Part shown: piece by piece, positions 79 to 42,408 of the stretch | Position numbering within the stretch: the first letter of the stretch is position 1 | How the letters are laid out: each line of letters opens with the position of its first letter | Assembly (NCBI GenBank): GCA_903944895.1 | Contig: CAJATL010000108.1 | Location: forward strand, 1 to 55,784 | From: an uncultured Bacteroidota bacterium | Lineage (GTDB): Bacteria > Bacteroidota > Bacteroidia > Bacteroidales > 4484-276 | Direction: 5' to 3' | Length of the DNA stretch: 55,784 nt | Position numbers and translations under genes: made by a program | Notes under the pieces: model-generated | Told to the model about the DNA's origin: nothing | The model's input: the letters and a program-made list of their open reading frames with translations, nothing else | Databases searched by the model: none

Positions 79-3000
79 ATGAAAAACTACACACTGCTCT
101 TAATCTTGGCTTTCAGCCTTTTTTCTGCAAGGCTTTCTTCTCAAACTTTCATGGTTACCAACACCGGAAACGCAGGACCCGGCTCACTCAGGCAGGCAAT
201 TACCGACGCCAATGCTTATTCCGGCGCTCCTACAATTACATTTGAAATACCAGTTTCGAGTGTCCTCCAGTTTACTACTGATTTGCCTCAGTTGAATCAT
301 GCCGACCTTACTATTGATGGTACCACTGCACCCGGATATTCTTATCCCGAAGCAATTGTTACCCTTAACTGGACTGGCAGAGACGATTGTTTTGAACAAA
401 AATTGAATAATGTAACAATCCGTGGTCTTGCCTTTACGAATGATTTAAATGGATCAGGAGAAGCATCCATCCGCGCCATTAGCGGAAGCAATTTACTTAT
501 TGAAAACTGCCGGGCATTTAATCAAAACCGAAGATTTGTAAGCGCTCAGGGCGGAACCGGAATACAGGTTAAAAACTGCATGGTTGAAAATTTTAATAAT
601 GATGGCAATGCAAAAGTATTTGAAGTTGCCAGCGGCGGTTTTTCATTAATAAGTGGTTGCATTATTACGAATATTCCAAGGAAAATTCTTGAAATCAATT
701 CATCAGGTGCTGCAGTTACAACGTTTTCGGACAATATCATCACCAACGTTGGTTATGAAGACAATTCATCGTCTGGTGGCAGGGGAGCGCATGTCATCCA
801 AACCAACGACATAACTACCCGGCTTGTGATAAAATACAATATCATAAACGGCTGCAAATCGAAGTTTATGGAAATCAGCAGAGGAACGACACTTGCTACC
901 AGAATGGATTCGATTTACAACAACGCAGTTATCAATTGTACCGGCCAGCATGGGATTTATCTTCAGGGCAAAGCTTCATCTTATGCCTACATTGCCGACA
1001 ATTATTTTGATGGCGATGGCGGAGTTTATGGGATGGATCAGGTGATTGAACTGAATATGGCACAATTTGCAAAAATCAAAGGAAATGTGATAAAAAACGC
1101 CAAATCCAGAGGTATAATGGCAAAAGATTCTGACGGAACCCTTATTAAAGGAAATGTAATGTACAATCTGAACAACAGCTCCATTATTGAGTTAAATGAT
1201 GATTGCGACAACATTATTATCAGGGCAAATATCATCGGCACCGACAGTCTGAACACACCAGGTTTATCCTTATCTACGGATGATGTAATTAGATTTAATG
1301 ATTGTGATGACTGCTCAATCGGTGGCGATTTTACCTTAGAATTAGGAAATCAGATTATTGCCGCTCCCGAAAAGAAAGCGATTCAAATAAGCGGCTCATG
1401 TTCCGGAATCAATACTATCCAGGGCAACGATATCAACGTAAGTTCCGATGGTCTTACAAATCTGTCAACATCTACCGAACCTGCACTTGAAATTTCGACC
1501 ACAAATGTGGTTATCGGCGGCGAAAGCAATATTTATCGAAACAGGATTTCTGGCTTGGGAACTGGTATTAAGGTCACCGGACAAAATACATCAATTCAGG
1601 GCAATCTGATAGGCTGCACGCAATTTGGTTCTCCGATTTCCGGAAGCGCCATGCCTGTAGGAATTTTAGTAGAAGCAGATAATGTAACCATCGGAAGTAA
1701 AACAACGGCGGGGCTTTCAAATTTACTTGGTTATTGCGCTGAGGCCATTCGCAATAATAATAAAGCCAATGTTTTATGGTCGGGTAACAGGTTTTTTAAT
1801 AATACTGGTCCTGTGGTGGTAAATAACGAAGGAGGAGGCGCGAACGGAGGAATAGCCGCTCCAGTAATTAGTGGAGGATCACTTCCTAATACAGTTTTCG
1901 GTACATCCCTGGCCAATGCACGGGTTGAAGTGTATCACTGGAATCCTGCGAAACCTGCTCAGGGTTATGAATATCTGGGATTTGCTATTGCCGATGGCAG
2001 CGGCACCTGGTCTTTTACTTCTCCTGTTGCATTAAATGACGAGGTTGCAGCTTTACAAATTGATAATTTAAACTCTTCTGAATTTTCCTCATACAGTGGA
2101 TTGGGTATTTTGGCTCCAACTGCCAATCACGACAATTCATCCGGCAATGTGGTGGGTTTAAATGCTGTAATTGATATCCTGGCGAACGATTTTCTTTCTA
2201 ACGGAAACCCTGCAACGGCCAGCCTTGTCGCAGTTGACCTTGACCTGAATATGGCAGGAGTTCAAAATACTTTAACCTTTGCAGGTGAAGGAATATGGGC
2301 TTACAACAATTCAAACGGTTTATTGACTTTTGATCCTCAGCCCGGTTTTACAACTGACCCATCAATTATCCAATATCAATTAACCGATAACTCTTCCGGA
2401 TATTCTGATTTGGCCGTAGTTTGGGCTGGTTACAATGAAGTTCCACCTGTTGCAAATGACGATTCCAGCAATGGAAACACTCCTGGAGTGAATGCCATTG
2501 TTAATATTCTTTCCAACGATATTTTATCGGATGGAAGCCCGGCAACTCCGGAAACCGTAAACATTGATGTCAATACTGCAATACACGGAATACAGACAAG
2601 TAATATCATTCAGGGAAAAGGAACCTGGACGTACAACACGCTAACAGGTGTCATTACGTTTGATCCGCTGCCGGGTTTTTCATTTAGTCCTCCGGTTTTG
2701 AATTACAACTTATTGGAAATCTGCTCAGGATTATCTGATGTTGCAACTGTGACTGTCACCTATAACACCTCACCGCCGGTTGCCAACAATGATGTTAGCG
2801 GGAATAATTTTTTCGGTTCTGCGGCGGTGGTTCAAATCCTGGCAAACGACCATTTATCTGATGGCAGCGTTCCGGCACCAGCTTTAGTATCTGTTGATAT
2901 AAATCAGGCTACACCTGGAATTCAAGCAACTTTGACTGTTCCGGGCCAGGGCGTCTGGACCTATTCTTCCGTTAATGGGGATCTTACTTTTTCACCTGAA

Positions 3001-6000
3001 TCCGGCTTTATGGCAAACCCATTGGTTATAACCTATACTTTGATCGAAAATGCCACAACCCTTTCCGATCAGGCAACGGTTACAGTAACCTACATCTCGG
3101 GACCTGAAATAACAATAAGCCCACTATCAATAGTGGAAACCCATTCTACTCCTCCACAAATAACAACAAAACAGGTTTTGGTGACTAATACCGGATCAAC
3201 AGCGCTTTCATTCAACCTTGAAGTTTTGATTAACAGCCAATTATTGAAAAACACATCACCTGAAGAAAAAATCTCACAGGAAATTGCTTCTAATCCTACC
3301 GTTATTTCAAACCTTGTTGCTTCTGGCAAAATCATTGGCGGCCACTCACCTTATCAGACAGATGATGCCTTGATAAGATATGATAACGGCGAAAATGAAA
3401 TGGGAATGGGTTTGTCAGGCGCAGGCAATTTTGAAGCTGCAGCCTATTTCCCTGCTGCAACAATGGCTCAGTATTCAGGAATGCAATTGACAAAAATCGA
3501 GTTTTTTATTAATGATGCGCCGTCACAATGTATTTTAAAAGTTTACGGACAAGGAACTTCATCGGTTCCGGGCACTTTGTTACACCAACAATCGGTAACT
3601 CCAACCATTAATTCATGGAATCTGATAGAACTTACAACCCCGGTTGCTATAAGCGGTGGCGATATTTGGTTTGGATATCAGGTAATACAAACTGCAGCAT
3701 ATTATCCGGCTGGTGTAGATCCTGGACCCGCAATAGCAGGATTTGGCGATAGACTTAAAATAAATGGCAGCTGGACAACCCTTTCAGGCAATGGCCTCAA
3801 CAATAACTGGAACCTGGCAGGACATCTTACCGGAACAAGTTGGCTTTCTGCTTCGCCACTTTCCGGTAACCTCAATGCCGGAGAATCGGTTTCTGTTGAA
3901 GTTACACTCAACTCCGCCGGTCTCAGCAATGGCATTCATGCCGGCACGCTTAATTTCACCAGCAACGATCCCACAAATCCTGTGATAAATGTGCCAGTAA
4001 CCCTAAACGTTGGTGAAAACGTACTTAATCCTCCGCAGAACCTGCAGGCAGTGGTAATCAATACCAATGATGTTGACCTAAACTGGGATGCTCCAGGCGG
4101 CATCCCCGGTGAATTGCTTAACTGGGATGACGGGGTTAATAATGATGGCATCGGATTGACATCAGGGGGAACTTTCTCGGTTGCAGCACGCTGGGAACCT
4201 CAGCATCTTAGCCCTTTTGATGACTGGTACCTGACACGGGTTAATATATTCCCGAAAAGTAATGCCGGTACTACTTTCATCCTTAAAGTATGGTCAGGAG
4301 CCAATGCAGGAACCTTACTCGTATCTCAAACTCTAAATGGACTTATCCAGGATTCATGGAATGAGATCATCCTTGATAATCCTGTAGTGATTAATGCCGG
4401 TACTGAACTTTGGGTAGGTTATACGGTACAAAACCAGCCGGCAGGCGATTATCCAGCCGGTTGCGATGATGGCCCAGCAATTGCAGGCTTTGGCGATAAA
4501 ATCTCACTTAACGGATCAAGCTGGGATAACCTTTCTGGTTTAGGTTTAAATTTCAACTGGAATATACAAGCTTATGTGCAGCCATCTGCTGACGGAGCAA
4601 CTGCGGCAGTGCCACTGACGATTCAATCAGAAAATTTCGATAACAATAATAGTATTCCGGTTGCAGGAAATCTGAAACCTTCGGCTTCTTCTGCTATCAA
4701 TAAGCAAAGAGGATTCCTGGGTTATAATGTTTATCGTAACAACATTAAAATTAATACCAGTACGGTTCTCGAAACTTCCTACCTTGATGCCGACCTTGCC
4801 AATGGAATTTATAACTACGGAGTAACTGCAGTGTACGATGAAGGAGAAAGCCTTCCTGCCGGACCCGTTCAGGTAACAGTACCTTCTGGGTCAGCACCCG
4901 AAATAGCCATAGACCCGCTATTGTTGCAGGAAACCCATTCCAATCCCCCTCAAGTAACCGAAAAAATAATTACAGTTACAAATACCGGAACTTCAAGCCT
5001 TGCCTTCGACCTTGAAGTTTTGACCGGTGGTGAATTATCAAAAAATTTATTACCTGCGTCCCAGGTTTCAATTGAAAGTTTTTCGAAACAATCCGAAATT
5101 TCAACCCTGTTGGCTTCCGCAAAAACCCATGGCGGCAAATCTCCTTATCAGACCGATGATGCAGTTATCAGGTATGATAACGGTGAAAACTACCAGGGAT
5201 TAGGAACGAACGGGACTATTGAAGCATCGGCATATTTCCCGGCAACAACCATGGCGCAGTATGTTGGAATGAATCTGACACAAATTGAATTTTACATTGT
5301 GGATGCTCCAACAACATGTATTTTGAAAGTTTATGGACAGGGAACTCCATCGGTTCCCGGCCCTTTGTTACATCAGCAAGCAGTAACTCCAACCGGCAAT
5401 TTCTGGAATCTGATAACACTTACAACGCCGGTTCCGATTACCGGCGAAGCCTTATGGTTTGGCTACCAGATAACAAATGCGGCAAGCACTTATCCGGCAG
5501 GAGTAGATCCGGGTCCCGCTGTCGCTGGATTTGGCGATATGCTTAAAATAAACGGAAGCTGGACAACGCTCTCGGCAAATGGTTTCGACAGCAACTGGAA
5601 CCTTGCAGGATATCTTTCTGACGGCGGCACCACCCCTACATGGCTTTCAGCTGAACCACAGTCGGGAAACCTCAACCCGGGGCAATCGGCTTCAATTTCT
5701 GTTACCTTCAACAGTGCCAACCTCAATAATGGCATTTATAACGGAACCCTTCGCTTTACAAGCAACGACACTGGAAATCCACAAATTGATGTTCCCGTAA
5801 TACTGAATGTTGGCGGCAGCGGATTGTATCCTCCTCAAAACTTACAGGCAAATGTGGTTAACTTCAATGATGTATCGCTAACCTGGGATTCTCCTTCAGG
5901 AATGGCTGCCGAATACCTACACTGGGATGACGGGCTAAATAATGATGGTATCGGGATTACCACAGGAGGAACTTTCACAGTTGCTGCCCGCTGGGAACCT

Positions 6001-7812
6001 CAGCATCTGGAATCCTTTGATGGCTGGTTCCTCACTAAGGTTAATATTTTCCCGAGAAGTGAGTTAGGAACAACCTTCATCCTAAAAGTTTGGTCAGGTG
6101 CAAATGCAGGCACACTGCTTGTTTCACAAAATCTGAGTAATCTTACTCAAAATAACTGGAATGAAATCGTGCTTGACAACCCGGTAATTATCAATGCAGG
6201 CACCGAACTATGGGTAGGCTACACGTGCCAGAATCAGCCTGCCGGCGATTATCCTGCCGGCGCTGATGCAGGTCCTGCCGTTGCTGGATTTGGGGACAAA
6301 ATTACAACGAATGGTACCACCTGGAATAACCTTTCAGCTTTAGGTTTGGATTACAACTGGAATATTCAGGCATACATTCAACCTACTGCTGATGATGATG
6401 CAACACCGGCAGTGCCACTGGCGATTAAATCAGACAATTACAGCACCAACAATAACAGTATTCCGGCAGCCGGAAAACTGGAACCTTCTGCCAATTCTGC
6501 CTTCCGGAATGCAAAAGGACTTTTGGGTTATAACGTTTACCGTGATGGAACCGTCATCAACCAGAATCCAATTCCGGAAACTACCTTCCTCGATCCAGCC
6601 CTTGCAAACGGGACTTACTCCTATGATGTTACCGCAGTTTATGATGAAGGCGAGTCAACAGGTGCCGGAGCAATTGAAGTAACAATCGGCTGCCCTTTGC
6701 CTGTTCCTGCAAACCTTCTTGCTGAAGGTTCCGGTCCTGATGAAGTTTACCTCACCTGGGAGGAACCTGTAAATCCGGGAGGCATAATTCGCTGGGATGA
6801 CGGAATAAACAATGATGGAATTGGTTTGACCACAGGAGGCTCATTCAAGGTAGCCGCCCGCTGGGATGCCAACCAAATTACCGATTATGATGGATTATAC
6901 CTGACAATGGCCGATATTTTCCCGCGAAGTGAATTGGGAACTAATTTTACCCTGAAGGTATGGAGTGGAACAAATGCCTCAACTTTGCTCGTAAGCCAGC
7001 CATTAACAGGTCTTCTACCGAATGAATGGAATACAGTGATTTTAGATACTCCTGTGCCCATTGACGCTACAAAAGACCTCTGGATAGGTTATGAATTATC
7101 AAATCAGCCCGTAGGCGATTACCCTGCAGGTACCGATATAGGCCCTGCAGTAGCTGGTTATGGAGATAAGATTTCGCTAAACGGAACAAGTTGGGATAAT
7201 CTTTCAGCGCTTGGCCTCGATTACAACTGGAATATTGCAGGAACTATCGGTTTGGATGCTTCCGGTAAGCCACTGGCACAACCAATTGCTCTCGGGCATC
7301 AGACCTATTCCGGAAACGGCAGTACCATTAACCAGGGTCATCTCCCAATGGCTGTCAATCCGGTAAATACTTCTGGTCTGAACCGCGATTTGCTTGGTTA
7401 TAATATTTACAGGGATAATCAACAAGTAAACACTTCAATGGTTACACTCACCGAATATTCCGATACAGGAGTTCCTGGCGGTTATCATGAATATTTTGTG
7501 ACAGCAATTTACACCCAATGCGAAAGCGACCCATCCAACATAGCAACAATTACTGTTGATATTGATGAGCTTCAAAAGGAAAAAATGTCACTGAACCTGC
7601 TGCCAAATCCGGCAACGACAGAGGTGGAATTTGTGTCGGACAGTAAGATGAACCGAATCACAATAATTAATAGTTTTGGAACGGAAATATTTCTGGGTAA
7701 CATAAACCAGAAGTATTTTAAGTTGGGCGTTTCTTCCTTTCCCAGCGGATTGTACATTGTTGCAATAGAATTTGACGAGGGGAAAGTTTTTAAAAAATTG
7801 ATAATACGGTAG
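79..7812 (+). CDS. Giant T9SS-secreted beta-helix / Ig-like / FN3 repeat protein (paralog A)
   Basis: This 2577-aa protein is probably exported and anchored at the cell surface; no enzymatic motif is visible. It starts with a signal peptide (residues 1-22, ending SARLSSQ). Residues about 25-620 carry a G-P-G-S-L-R-Q-A-I motif and degenerate repeats rich in N, I and G typical of right-handed parallel beta-helix proteins. Three cadherin/Ig-like repeats (about 678-1007) each start near V-A-N-x-D and contain I-L-x-N-D. Then come alternating Ig-like (THSxPPQ...VTNTG; ending FTSNDP) and FN3 repeats (PPQNLQA...LGYNVYR). Five are interrupted by a roughly 150-aa module that begins [RW]-[YD]-D-[ND]-G and ends N-W-N-[LI]. 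Residues 2500-2577 are a type-A T9SS sorting domain (LPNPATTEV...KKLIIR). A paralog lies 78 bp downstream. Cell adhesion or polysaccharide binding is an inference from the architecture only. Confidence 0.9.
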   Translation: MKNYTLLLILAFSLFSARLSSQTFMVTNTGNAGPGSLRQAITDANAYSGAPTITFEIPVSSVLQFTTDLPQLNHADLTIDGTTAPGYSYPEAIVTLNWTGRDDCFEQKLNNVTIRGLAFTNDLNGSGEASIRAISGSNLLIENCRAFNQNRRFVSAQGGTGIQVKNCMVENFNNDGNAKVFEVASGGFSLISGCIITNIPRKILEINSSGAAVTTFSDNIITNVGYEDNSSSGGRGAHVIQTNDITTRLVIKYNIINGCKSKFMEISRGTTLATRMDSIYNNAVINCTGQHGIYLQGKASSYAYIADNYFDGDGGVYGMDQVIELNMAQFAKIKGNVIKNAKSRGIMAKDSDGTLIKGNVMYNLNNSSIIELNDDCDNIIIRANIIGTDSLNTPGLSLSTDDVIRFNDCDDCSIGGDFTLELGNQIIAAPEKKAIQISGSCSGINTIQGNDINVSSDGLTNLSTSTEPALEISTTNVVIGGESNIYRNRISGLGTGIKVTGQNTSIQGNLIGCTQFGSPISGSAMPVGILVEADNVTIGSKTTAGLSNLLGYCAEAIRNNNKANVLWSGNRFFNNTGPVVVNNEGGGANGGIAAPVISGGSLPNTVFGTSLANARVEVYHWNPAKPAQGYEYLGFAIADGSGTWSFTSPVALNDEVAALQIDNLNSSEFSSYSGLGILAPTANHDNSSGNVVGLNAVIDILANDFLSNGNPATASLVAVDLDLNMAGVQNTLTFAGEGIWAYNNSNGLLTFDPQPGFTTDPSIIQYQLTDNSSGYSDLAVVWAGYNEVPPVANDDSSNGNTPGVNAIVNILSNDILSDGSPATPETVNIDVNTAIHGIQTSNIIQGKGTWTYNTLTGVITFDPLPGFSFSPPVLNYNLLEICSGLSDVATVTVTYNTSPPVANNDVSGNNFFGSAAVVQILANDHLSDGSVPAPALVSVDINQATPGIQATLTVPGQGVWTYSSVNGDLTFSPESGFMANPLVITYTLIENATTLSDQATVTVTYISGPEITISPLSIVETHSTPPQITTKQVLVTNTGSTALSFNLEVLINSQLLKNTSPEEKISQEIASNPTVISNLVASGKIIGGHSPYQTDDALIRYDNGENEMGMGLSGAGNFEAAAYFPAATMAQYSGMQLTKIEFFINDAPSQCILKVYGQGTSSVPGTLLHQQSVTPTINSWNLIELTTPVAISGGDIWFGYQVIQTAAYYPAGVDPGPAIAGFGDRLKINGSWTTLSGNGLNNNWNLAGHLTGTSWLSASPLSGNLNAGESVSVEVTLNSAGLSNGIHAGTLNFTSNDPTNPVINVPVTLNVGENVLNPPQNLQAVVINTNDVDLNWDAPGGIPGELLNWDDGVNNDGIGLTSGGTFSVAARWEPQHLSPFDDWYLTRVNIFPKSNAGTTFILKVWSGANAGTLLVSQTLNGLIQDSWNEIILDNPVVINAGTELWVGYTVQNQPAGDYPAGCDDGPAIAGFGDKISLNGSSWDNLSGLGLNFNWNIQAYVQPSADGATAAVPLTIQSENFDNNNSIPVAGNLKPSASSAINKQRGFLGYNVYRNNIKINTSTVLETSYLDADLANGIYNYGVTAVYDEGESLPAGPVQVTVPSGSAPEIAIDPLLLQETHSNPPQVTEKIITVTNTGTSSLAFDLEVLTGGELSKNLLPASQVSIESFSKQSEISTLLASAKTHGGKSPYQTDDAVIRYDNGENYQGLGTNGTIEASAYFPATTMAQYVGMNLTQIEFYIVDAPTTCILKVYGQGTPSVPGPLLHQQAVTPTGNFWNLITLTTPVPITGEALWFGYQITNAASTYPAGVDPGPAVAGFGDMLKINGSWTTLSANGFDSNWNLAGYLSDGGTTPTWLSAEPQSGNLNPGQSASISVTFNSANLNNGIYNGTLRFTSNDTGNPQIDVPVILNVGGSGLYPPQNLQANVVNFNDVSLTWDSPSGMAAEYLHWDDGLNNDGIGITTGGTFTVAARWEPQHLESFDGWFLTKVNIFPRSELGTTFILKVWSGANAGTLLVSQNLSNLTQNNWNEIVLDNPVIINAGTELWVGYTCQNQPAGDYPAGADAGPAVAGFGDKITTNGTTWNNLSALGLDYNWNIQAYIQPTADDDATPAVPLAIKSDNYSTNNNSIPAAGKLEPSANSAFRNAKGLLGYNVYRDGTVINQNPIPETTFLDPALANGTYSYDVTAVYDEGESTGAGAIEVTIGCPLPVPANLLAEGSGPDEVYLTWEEPVNPGGIIRWDDGINNDGIGLTTGGSFKVAARWDANQITDYDGLYLTMADIFPRSELGTNFTLKVWSGTNASTLLVSQPLTGLLPNEWNTVILDTPVPIDATKDLWIGYELSNQPVGDYPAGTDIGPAVAGYGDKISLNGTSWDNLSALGLDYNWNIAGTIGLDASGKPLAQPIALGHQTYSGNGSTINQGHLPMAVNPVNTSGLNRDLLGYNIYRDNQQVNTSMVTLTEYSDTGVPGGYHEYFVTAIYTQCESDPSNIATITVDIDELQKEKMSLNLLPNPATTEVEFVSDSKMNRITIINSFGTEIFLGNINQKYFKLGVSSFPSGLYIVAIEFDEGKVFKKLIIR
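3100..7560 (+). repeat. Alternating Ig-like/FN3 repeat block with five inserted ~150-aa modules
   Basis: Within paralog A the repeat pair (Ig-like host, then FN3 host) occurs twice and is followed by one more FN3 host. The inserted modules lie at approximately 3376-3830, 4120-4580, 5168-5630, 5920-6385 and 6790-7245. Those in Ig-like hosts start R-Y-D-N-G-E-N and carry Y-P-A-G-V-D-P-G-P-A. Those in FN3 hosts start W-D-D-G-x-N-N-D-G-I-G and carry Y-P-A-G-x-D-x-G-P-A. Both end with G-F/Y-G-D, a short loop and N-W-N. The two module types are clearly homologous to each other although their hosts are not. Boundaries are by eye and are good to about 20 residues. Confidence 0.75.
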
Positions 7813-7847
7813 TTTGTTTTTAGTTAAGGATTAGTTAATAAGAAGAA

Positions 7848-7869
7848 AAAGGGGGCACCTGCTCCCTTT
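7848..7869 (+). terminator. Hairpin after paralog A
   Basis: The arms AAAGGGGGCA (7848-7857) and TGCTCCCTTT (7860-7869) pair with one G-T wobble around a short loop. A T/A-rich tail follows rather than a clean T-run, so termination may be partial. It sits 35 bp after the stop codon and ends about 20 bp before the next start. Essentially the same hairpin follows the next gene. Confidence 0.6.
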
Positions 7870-7890
7870 ATTCTATTAAAAAAAAAGTTT

Positions 7891-10800
7891 ATGAAAAAGA
7901 GTTTTTTTTCTTTATTAATTGTTTTCAGCCTTTTTTCGGTTAGGTTGTTTTCTCAGTGTTACATCCCGATAACCAGCACTTCCGACAGTGGCCCGGGCTC
8001 ACTAAGGCAGGCCATTATCAGCGCCAATGCCTGTTTGGGAACTCCGGTGATTACCTTTGAAATTCCATCTTCGGCTGTAATTGAACTTCTTTCAGATTTA
8101 CCGGTGCTGAATTACGCCAGCCTGACTATTGATGGCTCCGTGGCGCCGGGTTATTCATATCCGGATGCATTGGTTACAATCAACTGGAGCGGCAGGGACG
8201 ATTGCCTCGAACTAAATCAGGATAATGTCACCATCAGAGGAATAGCTTTCACGAATAATTTTAACGGATCAGGGTATGCCGCCATCCGGGCTTCAGGTGG
8301 CAACAATTTACTTGTCGAATATTGTTGCGCCTATAATCAAAACCGGCATTTTGTATATTCTAATGAAGGAACAGAAATCAGATTAGAGAATTGCACAGCA
8401 GAAGATTTCAGTAACGACGGCAGTGCAACAGTATTTTCATGTTATGACAACGGCGGTTTTTCATTAATAAGTTACTGTAATATCAGGAATATAGCCAGCC
8501 GTTCAATCGACATTAGCAACTCAGGTGCACCAGTTACAACTATCGAAGAAAATGTATTTACCAACGTCGGCTACGAAGATAATTCATCATTAGGAGGACG
8601 CGGTCAACACATCGTCAATTGCGAAAGTGCAGCTACACGGCTGACAATCAGGAACAACATTATAATCGGATGCAAGTCAAAATTTGTTAACATCAGCAGA
8701 GGCTCGACATTTTTAACAACGAGGGATTCGATTTTTAACAACTCGGTTGTTAATTGTACTGGTAAGCATGTCATTTATATCGAAGGAATGGCTTCATCCT
8801 TTGCGTACATTGCAGAAAACAATATTGCTGGCGATGGAGGAGTTTATAACATGGATCAGGTAATCGAACTTAATGGCGCCCAATACGGAAAAATTAAAGG
8901 AAACGTAATAAAAAATTCCAAATCCAGAGGCATCATGGCCAAAAATTCAGACGGGACCATCATCAAAGATAATATCATGTACAACCTTAGCAATAGTTCC
9001 AATATTGAACTTAATGATGACTGCGATAATGTAATTATCAGAGGAAATATCCTTGGTACCGACAGTTTAAACACACCGGGGTTATCTTTAGCAACCGATG
9101 CAACTATCAGACTGAACGATTGCGATAATTGCTATGTTGGTGGGGATGTTTCTTTGAATCTCGGCAATCAGATTATTGCTGCCGTCAACAAGTCAGCTTT
9201 AACGGTAGCCAACAGTTGCGAAGGAACAACCACCATTCAGGGCAACGATTTCAACATCAGTTCCGATGGATTGACAAACCTAACAGCCTCCAATAGTGCA
9301 GTGCTTGCTGTCTATCCAGCAAATGCAATCATTGGCGGAGAAAGTGAATTGTACAGAAACAGGATTTCAGGATTGGGAACAGGCATTCAGCTTGATGGAC
9401 AAAATGCTGCAATTCAGGGTAACTTTATCGGTTGTACCCGGTTTGGTTCACCGGTAGCGGGAAGCGCGATGCCTTACGGGATTTATGTAAACGCCAACAA
9501 CACAACCATCGGAAGCAAAACAACGGTTGCTTTAAGAAACAAGATTGGTTATTGTGAAGAAGCAATTCGCAACAACGATAAAGATAACGTGTTGTGGTCG
9601 GGCAATGAATTTTATAAAAATACTGCTACTGTTGTGGTGAATAATGTTGGAAGCAGTCCCAACGGCGGAATATTGCCTCCGGTAATTAGCGGCGGCACTT
9701 TGCCTTCAACGGTTTTTGGCAATTCCCAGCCCAACGCCCGCGTTGAAGTGTATCACCAGAATCCGGCGACATCTGTTCAAGGATATCAATACCTGGGATT
9801 TGCTACTGCGAATGCAAGTGGTGCCTGGACATTTACTTCTCCGGTTGCGCTAAACGACCAGGTGGCTGCTTTGCAGATTGACAATTTAAACGCTTCTGAA
9901 TTCGCCACTTACACAAGCCTGCCAATTCAGGCACCCACCGCTAATTTCGACTATTCGCCAGCAAACGTGGTTGGAACAAATGCTGTAATTAACATTTTGA
10001 ACAACGATCTTTTATCGAACGGGAATCCTGCTATCGCTGCTCTGGTGTCAGTTGATCTTGACCTTTCAATATCAGGGATACAAACAACACTCACAGCAGG
10101 CGGCGAAGGCACATGGACTTACAATTCCTCCAACGGAAATCTAACGTTTGATCCGCAAGCCGGTTTCACCCGCGACCCTTCAATTATTCAGTACAAATTG
10201 ATCCAAAACAGCAACGGTTACTCAGATTTGGCTGTAGTTTGGGTTGGTTATACCGAAATACCACCCATCGCAAATGACGATGCAAGCAACGGAAATCTTA
10301 CCGGTTGGAACACAATAATTAATATCCTTTCCAACGATTTATTATCCGATGGAAGCTCTGCATCTGCGGCAAATGTAAGCGTTGACATTAATTCCGCAAT
10401 TCCCGGTATTCAGACAATCCTAACCATCCCGGGACAAGGAATCTGGATTTACAATGTTTTGACTGGTGAACTCACCTTTGATCCACAAACTGGCTTTTCT
10501 TTAAATCCACCTGTCTTAAAATACATCCTTATAGAAACCATTACCGGCTATACAGATATGGCTGAAGTAACAGTTACCTACATCCCGCCGCCACCGCCAG
10601 TTGCCAACGACGATGTGAGTAGCGGACATTTTTTTGGCACCATTGCTGAAGTTCAGATTATGGCCAACGACCATTTATCGGATGGAAGTGTTCCCTTGCC
10701 AGGATTAGTTTTGATAGATATTGATCAGGCAATACCCGGAATCCAGATTAAATTGATTGTTCCGAATGAAGGAGTTTGGAATTATTACTTTTTGACTGGG

Positions 10801-13800
10801 ATATTATCGTTTGATCCGGTTGCGGGCTTTTTGTCCAATCCTTCGGTGATTAATTATACCCTTACCGAAAACAGCACCGGTTTCTCCGATGGAGCATCGG
10901 TTACACTAAACTACTCCCTGGGTACAGACCTTTTTCCTCCTTTAAATCTTAAGGCCGGGGTTAGAAATAATAATGATGTGCAATTATTCTGGGAACCTCC
11001 GGTAGGATTTCCCGGCCAATACATTCAATGGGACAATGGCGCAAATTTTGAAGGTATCGGGCTTACCTCCGGAGGGACTTTTTCGGTGGCTGCGCATTGG
11101 AAACCTTCACAGCTTACTCAGTATGACACCTGGTTGCTCACCCATGTTCAATTGTTTCCAAGAGATGTTTCCCAAATCGTTTTCACACTTAAAGTGTGGA
11201 GTGGCGCAGGTGGTTCAACGCTTTTGTATTCGCAACCATTAAACAACCTGGTTCCGAACCAGTGGAACACGATTATTTTGGATACCCCTGTCGAGATCAT
11301 TTCTTTACAGGATTTATGGGTTGGATATTCCGTGGAAAATCATCCTGCCGGAACATATCCGGCAGGATGCGACGAAGGCCCGGCTCAGCCTGGTCATGGC
11401 GATATGATCCGGTTGGACGGTGCTAATTGGAAAGACCTGAAAGATTTTGGCTATAATTATAACTGGAATATCCATGCCGGCATTGAACCTGCCGGAGAAT
11501 ATAAAGTCCTGGCACAAACTTTTGATAAAGAATTGTCTTTAGAAACCAATGCTTCCGACCAAATATCAAGAAGTTTTATTGTAAGTGATGATGGAAAAAA
11601 CGCTGGAATTAGAGCAAATGTAATCGAATACAATATTTTCAGGAATGAAGAATTTTTAACCTCAGTTCCGGGAAATAAAACCACCTGTTTTGACAATAAC
11701 CTGCCCGTCGGCGTTTATTCGTACAAAATATCAGCGAATTATACCGGAGGCGAATCGTTGCCAGCCGGTCCTATCGAAATAAGTATTCCCGGCGGTACCG
11801 GTCCTGTAATTGTGCTGAACACAAATCCAATTGAAGAAACCCATCTTATGCCACCCCAATCATCCTCACTGCCTTTCAGCATTACAAATACAGGTTCTTC
11901 GATGTTGGATTTTAATGTCAAAGTTTTACCTCCTGAAAACAGAAAATCAATTAAACTCAGGAAAAACAACGATACAAAATCCATCCCTGCAACACGGACG
12001 GAAAACACTAAATCACCCCTGTGGAAATCAATAAAAACCGAATCAAATATTCCCACCCCCGTCAGGAGTAATGAAGTGATTATCCGTTACGATAATGGCG
12101 TGAACTATGGCGCTCTTGGTTTAAGTGACCCGGGAGGGACATTTGAAGTAGCCGCCTATTTCCCTGCATCTACCATGGCAAATTACACAGGGATGTTGCT
12201 TAAACAAATGGATGTATTTATTTTTCATGTACCAACAACTTTTAAAATTAAGGTCTATAGTGAAGGAACAGCTACCCAACCCGGAGATCTGATTTATGAA
12301 CAGGAAGTTGGCGAGGTTCCGGCAGGTGATGTTTGGTCGTTGATAACCCTAAATGACGAAATTCCGATTACCGGAGATGACCTGTGGATAGGCTACGAAG
12401 TTTCGCACGGCCCGGGAGTTATGCCGGCAAGTTATGATAATGGTCCGGCAGTAGCGGGATTTGGTGACTGGGTTTATACTGATGGTGTGTGGTCATCAAT
12501 GACTGATTTTGGTTTCGACCTTAACTGGAACATTGCCGGCTATCTGTTTGCCCCATCTCCTGATTATACCTGGGTTCAGGCAGTGCCTGTTCATGGTTCA
12601 GTCAGTCCGGACGAAACCTTTAATATGGAATTAACCTTCGATTCGGAGAATCTTTCGATTGGCATACATGAAGCAATTCTTCAATTTAATTCAAACGATC
12701 CGGCAAATCCTGCGGTTGACATACCTGTTTCACTCAACGTGGGTGGTGTGGTGCTTGATCCTCCAGTAAATCTGGCGGCAACGGTAACCGGCAATGACGT
12801 TTCTCTCACCTGGTATGTTCCTGTAAATGACTCCAAATCCAGTAAAATTAAGGGAAGCAGAGCCTTGTTAGGCTACAAAATTTACCGTGAAGGATTGTTT
12901 TTGGAACAGGTTGCCGAAACAAGTTATACTGATGAAAATCTGATTTCAGGAACTTATGAATATTATGTAAAAGCGGTTTATGACCTTGGAAGTTCACCTC
13001 CTTCCGATACTGCCGAAGCTATTATTTTGCCATCGGGAAGCGACCCGCACATCCTGGTTTCGCCCGGGCAGCTTTATGAAGCGCATTTTAGTCCGCCGCA
13101 AACAACATTTCGCCAGATCACTATTTCAAATGCTGGTGAAATACCGCTCGATTTCAACATTGATGTTGTGATTGATTCAAAAAAAATACCTGTAACCGGT
13201 TTTATTCCAAAACTTACTTCTGAGTCTTTTTCGGATAAAAATACGGGTAAAATACTACTCACAAAAGGCAATGCCTATCCTGGAGAATATCCATCAAAAC
13301 AAAAGGATGAAGAGGTTATCAGGTATGACAATGGCGAAAATTTCAGTTGGGTTGGCCTTAGCAACGGAGGAACATTCCAGGCGGCAACTTACTTTCCGTA
13401 TTCAACTATCTGGCAATACACCGGAATGGAAATTTCGCAGATTGAGTTTTTCATCAAAGAAGCGATTACTGATTGCAGGATACAGGTATTTGGCCAGGGT
13501 TCAGCAAGTATTCCAGGTCCATTGCTTTATGAGGAGGTCGTAGAAGTCACTCCGGATTCCTGGAACCTGATTGAATTGTCAACACCGGTTATCATCAGCG
13601 AAGGTGATCTTTGGATAGGCTATCAGGTGACGCATGATGCAGGTTTTTATCCGGGAGGTATTGACGCAGGTCCAGCTGTAGCAGGATTTGGTGATATGGT
13701 AAATTTTTCCGGATCATGGGCAACGCTTTCCGGCTATGGCATCAACAATAACTGGAATATTGCCGGGTATCTTACCGGAACCCCATTTTTTACCTGGCTG

Positions 13801-15519
13801 AAAACAGATACTACATCAGGTACGATTAACCAAAATCAGTCACAAACCATCAATATTTCCATTAACTCTTTGGGGCTGAGCCAGGGAATTCATGAAGCAT
13901 CGCTGATCTTAACCAGCAACGACCCGTTAACTCCGGAAGTGATTGTACCGGTCACCCTGAATGTAGGCACAACCGAACTTAATCCTCCACAAAATTTGCA
14001 AGCTAACCTGATAAGCCTCAACGATGTGCTACTCACCTGGGATAATCCTTCAAAATCATCTTCCATCAATTCCGGAAACAATAAAAATTTTCCGGCTTCC
14101 GGGAAATCAGAATCCTTAGCCTCATTTCCCAATGATAAACAAAGAGGTTTCCTCGGTTATAATGTTTATCGTGATGGTGTGATAATTAATAACAATGCTG
14201 TTTTAGAAACCTCTTACACCGATACTGACCTGGCGATTGGAACTTACAATTACGAAGTTACTGCACTTTATGTCGAAGGGGAAAGCCTTCCTTCAGTGCC
14301 TGTTCAGATAATCATTCCTTCCGGGGCAGAAATAACAATTGATCCGACCTTCATGGAAGAAACACACACAACCCCACCCCAAATTACAACACAACAGCTT
14401 TTGGTAACAAATACCGGAACTTCTATTCTAAACTTTAATCTTGAAGTATTAATAGGAAAAGGCTCAGCTATTCCTGAGCCAGAACCTGGACTGAGAACTT
14501 CATGGCTATCCGCTCAACCATTGACAGGTAATCTTAACCCGGGACTATCGGCTACGATAACGGTTATTTACAATTCCGCTGACCTGAGTTTTGGAGTTTA
14601 TAACGGAACGCTGCACTTTACCAGCAACGACCCTGTAAATCCGGTGGTGAATATCCCAGTTACACTCAATGTTACAACAGAAGAACTTAATCCACCGCAA
14701 AACCTGCAGGCAGAAGTAATCAATAGCAATGATGTTTTGCTTACATGGGAATCGCCTGCAATAAGGCCGGCAAAAAAATCAGGAAATTCAGATTTCGGCA
14801 TCGGAAAAGGTTTCCTGGGCTACAACGTTTACCGTGATGGTGTTGTTATTAATCAAAATCCAATACAAGAAACCACTTTTATTGATTCCGCACTTGAAAA
14901 TGGCTTTTACACTTACGATGTTACCGCCGCTTACGACGAAGGCGAATCACCAGGTGCCGGGGCAGTTGAGGTAATGATAGGATGCCCGCTTCCACCTCCA
15001 CAAAATCTCCTGGCGCAAGATACCGGACCCGAAGAAGTTTACCTTACTTGGGAGGAACCTGAAATTCCGGTAATTATGTCACAACCGGATCGTGATTTAC
15101 TGGGTTATAATGTTTACAGGGACAGCCTAAAGATTAACGAATCATTGGTCACCCTCACCGAATATTATGATACAAGTGTTCCGGCTGGTTATCATGAATA
15201 TTATGTAACGGCATCTTATTCCCAGTGCGAAAGTGAGCCATCCAATACTGCCACGATTATTGTTGGTTTCAGCGAGCTGTCGCAGGAAAACATGTCTCTG
15301 GTCATCTTGCCAAATCCGGCAGCTACTCAGGTGGATTTTGCGTCAAACAGTAAAATGATTCGAATTACCATCAAAAACAGCATTGGCAAAAATTTTTATA
15401 AAGAAGCTATAAATCAAAGCAAGTTTCAACTGGATGTTTCTTCCTTCCCTAAGGGTTTGTATTTGGTAGAAATCGAATTTGGCGAGGGCAGGGTTATCAA
15501 AAAATTAGTAATCAAATAG
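7891..15519 (+). CDS. Giant T9SS-secreted beta-helix / Ig-like / FN3 repeat protein (paralog B)
   Basis: This 2542-aa protein is a full-length paralog of the upstream gene, with the same order of parts. It has a signal peptide (residues 1-22), the G-P-G-S-L-R-Q-A-I motif and a beta-helix head to about residue 620, and three cadherin/Ig-like repeats (about 681-1009). A repeat block follows to about 2456, and a type-A T9SS sorting domain (about 2464-2542, LPNPAATQV...KKLVIK) ends the protein. Its repeat block differs from that of paralog A. One FN3 (insert about 1045-1200) and two Ig-like repeats (inserts about 1398-1555 and 1810-1963) carry the roughly 150-aa module, whereas four FN3 repeats and one Ig-like repeat (about 2147-2261) are uninterrupted. 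A surface-exposed structural or adhesive role is inferred; no catalytic residues are apparent. Confidence 0.9.
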   Translation: MKKSFFSLLIVFSLFSVRLFSQCYIPITSTSDSGPGSLRQAIISANACLGTPVITFEIPSSAVIELLSDLPVLNYASLTIDGSVAPGYSYPDALVTINWSGRDDCLELNQDNVTIRGIAFTNNFNGSGYAAIRASGGNNLLVEYCCAYNQNRHFVYSNEGTEIRLENCTAEDFSNDGSATVFSCYDNGGFSLISYCNIRNIASRSIDISNSGAPVTTIEENVFTNVGYEDNSSLGGRGQHIVNCESAATRLTIRNNIIIGCKSKFVNISRGSTFLTTRDSIFNNSVVNCTGKHVIYIEGMASSFAYIAENNIAGDGGVYNMDQVIELNGAQYGKIKGNVIKNSKSRGIMAKNSDGTIIKDNIMYNLSNSSNIELNDDCDNVIIRGNILGTDSLNTPGLSLATDATIRLNDCDNCYVGGDVSLNLGNQIIAAVNKSALTVANSCEGTTTIQGNDFNISSDGLTNLTASNSAVLAVYPANAIIGGESELYRNRISGLGTGIQLDGQNAAIQGNFIGCTRFGSPVAGSAMPYGIYVNANNTTIGSKTTVALRNKIGYCEEAIRNNDKDNVLWSGNEFYKNTATVVVNNVGSSPNGGILPPVISGGTLPSTVFGNSQPNARVEVYHQNPATSVQGYQYLGFATANASGAWTFTSPVALNDQVAALQIDNLNASEFATYTSLPIQAPTANFDYSPANVVGTNAVINILNNDLLSNGNPAIAALVSVDLDLSISGIQTTLTAGGEGTWTYNSSNGNLTFDPQAGFTRDPSIIQYKLIQNSNGYSDLAVVWVGYTEIPPIANDDASNGNLTGWNTIINILSNDLLSDGSSASAANVSVDINSAIPGIQTILTIPGQGIWIYNVLTGELTFDPQTGFSLNPPVLKYILIETITGYTDMAEVTVTYIPPPPPVANDDVSSGHFFGTIAEVQIMANDHLSDGSVPLPGLVLIDIDQAIPGIQIKLIVPNEGVWNYYFLTGILSFDPVAGFLSNPSVINYTLTENSTGFSDGASVTLNYSLGTDLFPPLNLKAGVRNNNDVQLFWEPPVGFPGQYIQWDNGANFEGIGLTSGGTFSVAAHWKPSQLTQYDTWLLTHVQLFPRDVSQIVFTLKVWSGAGGSTLLYSQPLNNLVPNQWNTIILDTPVEIISLQDLWVGYSVENHPAGTYPAGCDEGPAQPGHGDMIRLDGANWKDLKDFGYNYNWNIHAGIEPAGEYKVLAQTFDKELSLETNASDQISRSFIVSDDGKNAGIRANVIEYNIFRNEEFLTSVPGNKTTCFDNNLPVGVYSYKISANYTGGESLPAGPIEISIPGGTGPVIVLNTNPIEETHLMPPQSSSLPFSITNTGSSMLDFNVKVLPPENRKSIKLRKNNDTKSIPATRTENTKSPLWKSIKTESNIPTPVRSNEVIIRYDNGVNYGALGLSDPGGTFEVAAYFPASTMANYTGMLLKQMDVFIFHVPTTFKIKVYSEGTATQPGDLIYEQEVGEVPAGDVWSLITLNDEIPITGDDLWIGYEVSHGPGVMPASYDNGPAVAGFGDWVYTDGVWSSMTDFGFDLNWNIAGYLFAPSPDYTWVQAVPVHGSVSPDETFNMELTFDSENLSIGIHEAILQFNSNDPANPAVDIPVSLNVGGVVLDPPVNLAATVTGNDVSLTWYVPVNDSKSSKIKGSRALLGYKIYREGLFLEQVAETSYTDENLISGTYEYYVKAVYDLGSSPPSDTAEAIILPSGSDPHILVSPGQLYEAHFSPPQTTFRQITISNAGEIPLDFNIDVVIDSKKIPVTGFIPKLTSESFSDKNTGKILLTKGNAYPGEYPSKQKDEEVIRYDNGENFSWVGLSNGGTFQAATYFPYSTIWQYTGMEISQIEFFIKEAITDCRIQVFGQGSASIPGPLLYEEVVEVTPDSWNLIELSTPVIISEGDLWIGYQVTHDAGFYPGGIDAGPAVAGFGDMVNFSGSWATLSGYGINNNWNIAGYLTGTPFFTWLKTDTTSGTINQNQSQTINISINSLGLSQGIHEASLILTSNDPLTPEVIVPVTLNVGTTELNPPQNLQANLISLNDVLLTWDNPSKSSSINSGNNKNFPASGKSESLASFPNDKQRGFLGYNVYRDGVIINNNAVLETSYTDTDLAIGTYNYEVTALYVEGESLPSVPVQIIIPSGAEITIDPTFMEETHTTPPQITTQQLLVTNTGTSILNFNLEVLIGKGSAIPEPEPGLRTSWLSAQPLTGNLNPGLSATITVIYNSADLSFGVYNGTLHFTSNDPVNPVVNIPVTLNVTTEELNPPQNLQAEVINSNDVLLTWESPAIRPAKKSGNSDFGIGKGFLGYNVYRDGVVINQNPIQETTFIDSALENGFYTYDVTAAYDEGESPGAGAVEVMIGCPLPPPQNLLAQDTGPEEVYLTWEEPEIPVIMSQPDRDLLGYNVYRDSLKINESLVTLTEYYDTSVPAGYHEYYVTASYSQCESEPSNTATIIVGFSELSQENMSLVILPNPAATQVDFASNSKMIRITIKNSIGKNFYKEAINQSKFQLDVSSFPKGLYLVEIEFGEGRVIKKLVIK

Positions 15520-15576: not shown

Positions 15577-15748
15577 ACTCAAATCTTAGAAAAAATTGGT
15601 TTCAAACCTTGCAGAAAAAAGAAAGTAAAATGGATTCATTTTGAAATACGGCACACAATGCATTTTTTTATTCTGAACCCAAAATTATAATACTAATAAT
15701 CATTAAACTTGTACATTAAAGTTGTTTCATCTTGAATGCAAATCTGTT

Positions 15749-18700
15749 ATGAAGAGTTTTACAGTTACTTTCATCATTGTTCTGTCATTTTTTTCGGCAT
15801 TTGCTCAAAAAAGCTGGGTTCCTTTTACAAGCAGTCAGGCGCAAACTCCACTGGTAACAATTGATCGTTCCGATCGTTCATCCATTATTTTCGATGTTAC
15901 GCTAACGGGAATGTTCAGTGAATTGATCACACGGGAAGGTTTAACATTTCAGAGGATTAGCCTGAACGAGAACCAGACAACACAGGAAATTGGTAAGCCC
16001 GAATTGCCGGCGCTTCACCAACTCATTGGAATTCCTGATAACCAATTGATTTCATTTGTGGTTTCAGATATCGAAACCATGAAACTGACAGGGTTCAACA
16101 TTTATCCGTTTCAAACGCCCACTACCGATAATCCCGGAGGCCAGTCAAAGGCATTTGTTATGGATAAAAGTTTTTATGGGCAAGATGTAAATTTTCCATT
16201 AGAAAATGTAAATGTGGATCAGCCGGAAATATGGCGGGATATTAGAATCAGCGGAATTCATATCACCCCTTTCACCTTCAACCCGGCTAAACAGGAGCTT
16301 ACGGTGATAACCCGCATGAAAGTAAAGGTTGAATTCACAGGAAACGATACAAAAACGGCTTTAATCCGAGGCAAAGAACTTACTCCAAAGTTTTACAACA
16401 TGTACAAACATGCTATCGTAAACTTTGATGACCTGGGTTATACCCAAACCCTGAAAGAAACATCTGGCATTAAATATCTTATCATTACCAATACCGAGGC
16501 TCTCAATGCCATCCAGCCTTTGGTGGACTTCAAAAACCGGCAAGGGATGAAAGTTGAAGTAAAAATTTTGGAAACCGGTTTTAATACTCCACAACTGTTC
16601 AAGAATTATATTACTCAGCTTTATAACAGCGATGGACTTGAATATGTACTTATGGTAGGTGATGCCTATCCTAATGGTGGTACAGGTGGTGGTCCTAATA
16701 TTGTCCCAATGTATTGGTGGGAACCTTCCGGCGAAGACCCATCCTATTCTGATTCCTGGTACACTTGTCTTCAGGGAGACGATGACCACTTTGCCGACCT
16801 GGCCATCGGAAGATTGGTTTATGATTTTAATTCACTAAATGAACTCGAACTACAGATTCAGAAAACCATGACGCATTATCTTGCTCCGGATGTCACCAGC
16901 AACTGGGCCGAAAACGCGCTCCTTATCGCCCACAAGGAAGAATATCCTTTAAAATTCACACAATGCTGTGAAGAAATCAGAACTTACCCTTATTCAGTTC
17001 AGGTACCTATTTTTGAAAAAGCGTATGGTGGTGAGGGCGCATCAAACCAACAGGTGATAAACTTCGTGAATAATACTGCCTGTGGTATTTTTGGGTATCG
17101 GGGTCATGGAAGTTCTACCGACCTTTGGCAGTGGGGATCATCAGGCAATTTCAGTGCCTCTCATGTGGCTCAACTAAACAATATGAATAAATTGTTTGTA
17201 TTTTTTGATGTCTGTTGCGAAAACATGAACATTGTATCCTACAACGGTGATTGCCTGACCGAATCATTTATGAAACACCAATCAGCTTCAGTTGCAGTTA
17301 ACGGAGCGATTATCCCGTCATTTACCATACCAAATCATGATTACGACAAGGAAATGTTCAAAGCCATTTATGACGAAGACATTACCAATATTGGTTATGT
17401 AACCAATTTTGCAAACATTACTGTCCTCAACGTTCATGGCACCATGGGGCGTTCAAACGTCAGAACTTATCTCTGGCTTGGAGATGCATCCCTTGAACCC
17501 TGGACCAAACAACCAGCCAACCTCACAGTCGCTCATGATCCTCAGTTATTTCTGGGTGTTTCGGAGTTTTCTTTACAGGTTACAGGCGAAGGTGGTGCAG
17601 CCAAAAATGCACTTGTCTGCGTGAGCAATCAGGATGGGACAATCTATTCGGCTGGTTACACCGATGCTTTAGGCGTGGTTACGCTTACTTTTGATGACCC
17701 CGTTCAAACCCTTGGTGAGGCAATGGTTACGGTAACTTTACACAATTATTTACCGTACCAGGTAGTAATTCCTGTTATTCCAAAATCAGTCCCCTTTGTA
17801 GGCAGAGACACCTGGCTGATTAACGATACAGCCGGCGGTAATGGAAACGGTCTGTTAGATTGCGGTGAAGCTGTGTTATTATCACTGGCTGTAAAAAATT
17901 TTGGAGCAATAGTAGCTAAAAATGTTGTCGTTACGATTTCGACAAATGATGATTATACCACAATCACCGATAGTACCGAAAATTATGGCAACATCCAACC
18001 TTTGCAGGCTGTTTCTGTTGCTGATGGTTTTTCTTTTAATGTTGCAAACTCAATGCCTGATAGCCATTCTGTCTTGTTTGAAGTTACCGCAACAAATGGC
18101 CTGGAGGTCTGGACAAGCAGTTTCGTAATCGTCGGACATGCACCGGTACTCGACATTTTTTCATTCATTATTGATGATACCTCCGGAAATAATAACGGAC
18201 TACTTGATCCAGGTGAAACTGTAGCACTGGTAGTTTCTGTTGGAAATAATGGAACGGCAACAGCCTATAATGTTATGGGACTTCTTACCACCACCAATCC
18301 TTTTGTTTCGGTTCTTACTAATGAAGGGCAATCCTTTGGAAATATTTCACCTTCTTCAAACGCTACTTTAGCGTTTACTATTTCGGCAGCTTCAAATACA
18401 CCTTACGGCTATTCGGCACTGCTAAATTTTGCTTTTACAGCCAGCATGGGAATCACTGCGCAGGAGTTTATCCAAATAATACTTGCTGATTATTGTGATG
18501 CTTCAATAAACACCAAAAATGAATTTATTTCTAAAGTTGTTTGTGGCACCATCAGCAACTCAAGCGACTGGCAAAGTGATGTTGCCGATTATACAAACAT
18601 TACTGCAGTTCTGGTTCCTGGAGTACCCAAACCCATAACAGTTACCAATGGAGCGCCATGGTCAGGCGACAAGGTTACTGTTTGGATAGATTGGAATCTT

Positions 18701-27489: not shown

Positions 27490-27503
27490 TTTTTTAAAAT
27501 CTA

Positions 27504-29662: not shown

Positions 29663-29681
29663 AAATTAGTGACGATGAATT

Positions 29682-42385: not shown

Positions 42386-42408
42386 TAAATTCAAAATCAG
42401 AATTTAAA

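Follow-up and report, generated by a model that had tools for sequence, protein, structure and literature searches.

FN3 and ASH-type Ig domains as probable sockets for folded guest domains in T9SS-type proteins of a Bacteroidota bacterium

We analysed a stretch of 55,784 nucleotides (nt), hereafter the window, from an uncultured Bacteroidota bacterium (assembly GCA_903944895.1, contig CAJATL010000108.1; the genome consists of 424 contigs), and in particular two adjoining open reading frames (ORFs) on one strand that encode the large paralogous proteins A and B. In both proteins, domains of the FN3 and of the Ig-like (ASH/HYDIN) type are split by a lectin-like module, and we consider it likely that these domains of surface proteins of the type IX secretion system (T9SS) type act as sockets, that is, as hosts that would keep their own fold while taking up a folded guest in one loop. 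Our sequence comparisons and predicted models show that the guest occupies a fixed position, that the host is predicted to co-fold around a lectin-like guest, that the guest is present in some copies and absent from others, that other guests stand in the same slots, and that in one case a guest has been replaced by another between paralogs.

The nested module and its split hosts

Mapping the module onto A and B (Table 1) gave eight copies of 151-156 amino acids (about 153), four inside FN3 and four inside Ig-like hosts. The repeats of A follow the order Ig, FN3, Ig, FN3, FN3 and 5/5 are filled, in agreement with an initial annotation, made from the sequence alone, which had described five repeats each split by a module of about 150 residues. 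B reads FN3 filled, Ig filled, FN3 empty and Ig filled, followed by FN3, Ig, FN3 and FN3, all empty; the same annotation correctly had four FN3 repeats and one Ig-like repeat (about 14326-14673) of B running uninterrupted and left the three filled copies unmentioned. Because the eight copies are 46-73% identical among the Ig-lodged, 54-78% among the FN3-lodged and 36-43% between the two classes, we conclude that they are homologous, and since a module profile matches 23 places in the genome (2 of them partial), their occurrence in the window is not due to chance. By sequence, the uninterrupted copies belong with the host families: residues 1623-1709 of B match PF00041 (fn3) over profile positions 1-82 of 84 (protein E 1.2e-10, 41.9 bits, cut-off 25), and residues 2166-2253 match the HYDIN-type Ig family PF22544 over positions 21-93 of 100 (protein 35.0 bits, cut-off 25.5); PF15780 was below its cut-off in A and was not listed for B.

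Predicted structures were obtained with AlphaFold for one cassette of each kind, namely A FN1 (from 50 sequences; mean predicted local distance difference test score, pLDDT, 90.9) and A Ig1 (from 26 sequences; mean pLDDT 84.9, with linker residues 49-71 below 50). The structural matches reported here come from a second look with VIA-align, which re-aligned only the candidates returned by Foldseek, whose own tables gave low TM-scores and had PAPP-A and tandem-repeat chains on top. In the FN1 model (residues 1-293) both halves contribute to a seven-strand sandwich that matches a titin Fn3 domain (8oiy_B; Z 13.4, 94 aligned residues, root-mean-square deviation (rmsd) 2.6), and the module (residues 30-192) matches the lectin-like domain of Cwp84 (4d59_A; Z 15.8, 149 aligned, rmsd 2.3). 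The host halves of the Ig1 model match ASH/PapD-like domains, with 7n6g_4C (Z 13.3, 103 aligned) and 2qsv from Porphyromonas gingivalis (Z 13.2, 102 aligned) leading and HYDIN (2ys4, Z 11.3), MSP and OCRL lower, and its module (residues 67-249) again matches Cwp84 (4ci7_A; Z 18.5, 170 aligned, rmsd 2.7). According to the strands assigned by DSSP, the slot lies between strands B and C in FN3 and after the fourth strand in Ig. Host halves failing to form one domain were looked for and not found; the models, with one FN3 and one ASH/PapD-like Ig domain around the module, support the initial view that each host forms one domain, with the module nested in a single loop. Sequence order, taken without structures, would also permit a plain tandem arrangement, in which each half is a small domain of its own and the module simply lies between the two. 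Against this stand the co-folding of the halves in both predicted models, the fn3 and HYDIN-type Ig matches of the uninterrupted copies, and the pairing of 79 of 88 Ig N-halves with a C-half in a census of three genomes (below), and we regard an arrangement without nesting as very improbable. The module fold is also resembled by phage baseplate and fibre chains (9euj_G and 8zdp_v, Z 11.5 to 13.1; the phi812 baseplate chain 9euj_G matches the module of the A FN1 model with Z 13.1), a hint of a wider family of sandwich domains.

Relatives of the module and history of the slots

A wider profile matched 29 of 59 genomes including the window's own, comprising 12/12 from the same genus or family and 17/47 from the same order, where some matches were weak (E 1e-4 to 1e-8). 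A scan of GTDB contigs, of which the best 78 of 107 loci were used, yielded 90 modules in these best loci (Bacteroidota 69, Cloacimonadota 19, Chlorobiota 1, Fidelibacterota 1), two of them Ig-lodged, both in Bacteroidota. All loci fetched at that stage held 230 module matches, 214 of them full length, which left 158 distinct full-length modules after removal of duplicates. Both FN3 halves flank 88 of these and both Ig halves 20 (half-domains at E <= 0.01), and for the remaining 50 there is a single half, the contig is cut, or the setting is a different one. In L014, L123 and L125 the lectin-like module lies at the C-terminus behind a seemingly complete FN3-like domain, and therefore the module can exist outside a host; at L017 (G000:C248) an FN3 cassette follows the apparent end of what we read as a papain-like or streptopain-like peptidase.

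In B the final block of four repeats (FN3, Ig3, FN4 and FN5), all empty, is collinear with FN1-Ig2-FN2-FN3 of A, all filled, and the FN3 pairs of this set are 66, 76 and 70% identical in protein. Empty B Ig3 is nearest to A Ig1 (68% protein, 65% DNA) and then to A Ig2 (61% protein, 66% DNA). Empty B FN3 has a 31-residue linker that can be aligned in DNA to the linker behind the module in A FN1 (score 58) and in A FN2 (score 39), and in each comparison 0 of 1000 codon shuffles scored as high; this retention of a linker of the filled type suggests that B FN3 lost its module. A very similar genome from the same genus (G001), assembled independently, carries B on a single contig with an identical filled and empty pattern; as the pattern does not differ, this relative is uninformative about the direction of gain or loss.

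For a tree of the 158 modules, host labels were assigned by a looser rule than in the half-domain count (122 FN3, 28 Ig and 8 other, one row being set by hand). The FN3/Ig label changes twice when the 8 other rows are excluded, and setting the Ig group against all other rows gives 3 changes, compared with an average of 26.0 for shuffled labels. A single group (Shimodaira-Hasegawa-like approximate likelihood ratio test, SH-aLRT, 98) holds 27 of the 28 Ig-lodged copies together with one other, the Ig-labelled L040 lying outside it. With two class changes over 158 copies, free movement of the module between host classes is ruled out; of the initial proposal, the presence of the same module in two unrelated hosts at fixed positions stands, and free jumping between them does not. 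Based on the collinear repeats of A and B, the B FN3 linker, the module tree and a correlation between host and module identity, the filled cassettes seem mostly to multiply as units, with some emptied later and guests occasionally replaced.

Other guests and their exchange

In a first data set, gaps of 150-399 residues between host halves held cargo other than the module in 12 FN3 and 11 Ig cases, ten Ig gaps of at least 400 residues (five with the module) having been left out. A census based on a search for host C-halves, regardless of the module, covered the own genome and two genomes of the same family (G002 and G008). Here 79 of 91 Ig C-halves were paired with an N-half (14 holding the module, 4 a module-containing train of domains, 43 other cargo, 18 empty), as were 53 of 80 FN3 C-halves (16 module, 8 other cargo, 29 empty), so that 61/79 paired Ig hosts and 24/53 paired FN3 hosts were occupied, the unpaired C-halves (12 Ig, 27 FN3) being outside both counts. 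Two very long Ig pairings in L169 were discarded because they spanned other Ig domains. In a control with reversed sequences the four half-domain profiles gave 1 match in total, compared with 55, 88, 80 and 91 (314) forward. One FN3 C-half (G008:C77:3790-3960) carries an in-frame TAG and is possibly a decaying copy.

When the cargo was clustered by blastp (E 1e-4), Ig cargo fell into 13 clusters, of which L168_812 is doubtful, and FN3 cargo into 4, the MAM cluster occurring in both; the clusters are sequence groups, not necessarily distinct folds, and several have no Pfam match. Above the Pfam cut-offs, Ig cargo included InhA-like MAM, Cleaved_Adhesin, GEVED, P_proprotein, Laminin_G_3, PA14, DUF4394 and DUF7408 (ThuA matched weakly), and FN3 cargo included Cleaved_Adhesin, InhA-like MAM and 3keto-disac_hyd, with choice-of-anchor J assigned by NCBIfam. 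We use 'propeller-like' as our own name for cargo with certain sequence repeats; such cargo in L089 and L152 had no match in a Pfam search. Domains without detectable sequence similarity to the module fill the same two positions; it is the slot, rather than the module as initially thought, that appears to be the general feature, and both positions look like general cargo slots.

Five Ig slots of the own genome hold a train consisting of a first cargo, a domain that we read as CARDB-like, and GEVED, in the same order in 5/5. Trains of three domains within a single Ig domain occur at L157, L158 and L167, the first cargo being propeller-like or lectin-like, and one more L167 slot has only the last two train domains (CARDB-like and GEVED). 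L157 (C102) and L167 (C334) are collinear paralogs in which the DNA flanking the first cargo is 82.9% identical over 199 nt before and 80.2% over 935 nt after it (blastn), and the protein identity is 66% in the host N-half with linker and 86% in the C-half, nearer to each other than to other trains. Their first cargoes differ, one being propeller-like and the other lectin-like; between the two cargoes the best blastp E was 1.0, and blastn found nothing significant between the flanks. The similarity ends at domain borders or in the linker, and L167 shares 62-65% identity in its lectin-like cargo with two further trains. Judged from these alignments, the difference in first cargo is a swap. Further along, in the whole-ORF alignment, 264 residues in L157 stand opposite three in L167. 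Another pair of trains, in L157 and L158, have lectin-like cargo that is 86% identical (87% in DNA), with only 52% identity in the N-half plus linker and 51% in the C-half, and such similar cargo in divergent hosts is a second indication that cargo can become separated from its host.

Since the genome is in 424 contigs and the contig carrying L167 is short (3817 bases), we considered that the filled and empty pattern or the swap might be an artefact of metagenome assembly. This was ruled out, with hardly any probability left to it, by the intact B with the same pattern in G001 and by one open frame of G001 (contig C667) that matches both a propeller-like and a lectin-like train; moreover, the breaks in similarity fall at domain borders or in the linker. 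A further explanation would be one ancient insertion per host class followed by cassette duplication, with the empty copies as simple losses and the slots not being general sockets. It fits the mere two FN3/Ig changes on the module tree, the correlated host and module identities, the linker relic of B FN3, and the shared order of the two four-repeat blocks, all filled in A and all empty in B. It is at odds with the 12 further cargo clusters of the Ig slot (the doubtful one excluded) and the 4 of the FN3 slot in the three genomes, several of them Pfam-named, and with the different guests of the otherwise similar sister genes L157 and L167, and we hold it to be doubtful.

Several points weigh against the socket reading that we prefer. 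Across 80 FN3 cassettes there is a modest correlation of host identity with module identity (r 0.33, a value reached by 0 of 2000 permutations, whose maximum was 0.27). The host trees rest on 81 and 99 columns with mostly unsupported forks, so that the occupancy changes counted on them (24 and 13) are weak, and supported branches force only 2 or 3 changes per state. Linker relics in the other empty copies were unconvincing, the best for B2e, B4e and B5e being equalled by 16, 54 and 29 of 1000 codon shuffles in 16 comparisons. Occupancy depends on the threshold: with looser settings and shorter gaps, the Ig hosts of the own genome gave 8 with the module, 15 with other cargo, 13 empty and 10 without N-half. 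The pairing G000 L168_812 looks wrong, as its gap holds another Ig-like stretch. In the Ig model, host sequence is present in only 7 of the 26 rows, and one of these, L140, has train sequence at its C-terminal part instead of the Ig C-half. The co-folding models cover two lectin-like cassettes, the nesting of other cargo being represented by paired half-domain matches, and the clear swaps dissected number one.

In the socket reading, filled cassettes would multiply mostly by duplication of the whole cassette, and recombination at the borders of the slot, where long linkers may tolerate imprecise joints, would remove or exchange guests. The fibre would be exported by T9SS and anchored on the cell surface, and a guest, being attached through both its termini, would project laterally from the fibre of repeats as a putative binding head. 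That the modules are binding units is plausible from their predicted lectin-like fold; the ligands are probably glycans or other surface ligands, with glycans as the ligand class suggested by fold resemblance only. Alternatively, the guests could serve as spacers or as stabilisers, giving the fibre stiffness or protection from proteases. This we find unlikely, as guests change while the host stays and several belong to the LamG, PA14 and MAM families, which are known mostly for ligand binding. More broadly, and only tentatively, we envisage a general plug-in display, possible but short of probable, in which evolved sockets accept, in one loop, nearly every guest whose termini lie close together and recombination in the linkers exchanges the guests, giving one conserved backbone with changing heads (lectin-like, propeller-like, LamG, PA14, MAM, P-domain or three-domain trains); if true, it would generate diversity by whole-domain exchange inside a host fold.

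Most accounts of domain insertion treat single cases, with one guest in one host, and here two scaffold folds appear to be reused as sockets. Their filled, empty and swapped states in sister genes make the evolution of nested domains directly testable, reveal loops of FN3 and ASH domains that seem to tolerate large folded guests, and suggest natural scaffolds for domain display. For annotation, profile searches tend to see only half-domains, such as PF22544 or fn3 stretches, and repeat counts and domain orders can be misread.

Known systems and neighbouring genes

The module resembles the lectin-like domain of Cwp84 (PF18560; 4ci7 and 4d59) in fold over its length (Z 15.8 to 18.5). By sequence, 3 of 45 modules matched PF18560 at E <= 0.01 (best 9.8e-5), none of the 8 window modules did so at E <= 0.5, and PDB sequence searches found no match with the module (8 rows at E <= 1 or 45 rows at E <= 10) or with the empty Ig alone (E <= 0.1). 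The Cwp84 report places the domain in line after the cysteine protease, gives Leu339, Glu448, Lys460 and Asn487 as its calcium site, and calls carbohydrate binding putative there as well (PMC4089489); the present module, in contrast, is nested in FN3 or Ig hosts. Its invariant D117, G126 and N147 and near-invariant D127 are candidate calcium ligands by chain order only. DUF4082 (PF13313) was matched by 12 of 45 modules at E <= 0.01 (best 4.4e-6), although the match is partial, covering profile positions 29-95 or 29-99 of 143, and scored 25.0 bits for a single module (cut-off 28.4) and 54.5 bits for the whole protein A over more than one stretch.

The insertion of one domain into another is a familiar type of event. 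Binding modules nested in one loop include the carbohydrate-binding module (CBM) CBM4 in GH10 xylanases of Bacteroidota (Pm25, Xyn10C) and CBM58 in SusG (PMC7848910), a beta-sheet insertion occurs in sialidases (PMC11525138), and the domains of cytophagalysin are described in line (PMC11674741). GH10 and SusG differ from the present case in having enzyme hosts with CBM guests, as opposed to beta-sandwich scaffold hosts with guests of several families. For a multi-guest slot with swaps, and for FN3 or ASH-type Ig domains that serve repeatedly as sockets of many guests, searches of the open-access literature, where most subscription papers are lacking, found no published account.

Choice-of-anchor J / Cleaved_Adhesin and GEVED domains of secreted Bacteroidota proteins usually stand in line, whereas several members of these families lie here between FN3 or Ig host halves.

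Table 1. Features of paralogs A and B in the window (positions of the whole stretch)
Feature	Position	Strand	Remarks
Paralog A (2577 aa)	79..7812	+	signal-peptide-like start, beta-helix region, CshA-like repeats, 2 Ig and 3 FN3 all filled, T9SS type A tail
A Ig1 host N-half	3103..3225	+	
Lectin-like module in A Ig1	3373..3831	+	sequence, predicted model, structural match
A Ig1 host C-half	3838..4011	+	
A FN1 host N-half (strands A, B)	4024..4101	+	sequence, model
Lectin-like module in A FN1	4117..4581	+	sequence, model, structural match
Post-module linker of A FN1	4582..4707	+	homologous to linker retained in empty B FN3
A FN1 host C-half (strands C to G)	4708..4881	+	
A Ig2 cassette	4897..5811, module 5167-5619	+	
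A FN2 cassette	5824..6687, module 5917-6381	+	partial DUF4082 match
A FN3 cassette	6697..7557, module 6787-7251	+	
T9SS sorting domain of A	7603..7806	+	Pfam Por_Secre_tail
Paralog B (2542 aa)	7891..15519	+	plan as A; 3 Ig and 5 FN3 (3 filled, 5 empty), T9SS type A tail
B FN1 cassette, filled	10930..11787, module 11023-11487	+	
B Ig1 cassette, filled	11803..12741, module 12082-12549	+	
B FN2, empty FN3 host	12754..13026	+	near full-length fn3 match, aa 1623-1709
B Ig2 cassette, filled	13045..13965, module 13318-13776	+	
B FN3, empty FN3 host	13978..14316	+	31-residue filled-type linker retained at 14050-14142
B Ig3, empty Ig host	14326..14673	+	HYDIN_VesB_CFA65-like_Ig match, aa 2166-2253
B FN4, empty FN3 host	14686..14979	+	
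B FN5, empty FN3 host	14989..15264	+	nearest host filled A FN3 (70% protein, 74% DNA)
T9SS sorting domain of B	15307..15513	+	Pfam Por_Secre_tail

The start of A and B is signal-peptide-like in our own reading, and Pfam matches in the beta-helix region of both were weak and below the cut-off. Their C-terminal domain scored 35.9 and 38.4 bits with PF18962 (cut-off 27) and 25.5 and 33.3 bits with TIGR04183 (cut-off 23) in A and B, respectively, which identifies it as a T9SS sorting domain. Directly after A and B, a family C25 (gingipain family) peptidase with propeptide, GEVED, PKD and fn3 matches is encoded at 15722-20197, an order that is also kept in G001. Two more T9SS-tailed proteins, at 42373-45585 and 45679-48099, consist mainly of PKD repeats (8 and 7 PKD_4 stretches), and flippase-like polysaccharide biosynthesis and glycosyltransferase genes at 25094-31733 may form a surface-glycan locus beside the T9SS cargo.
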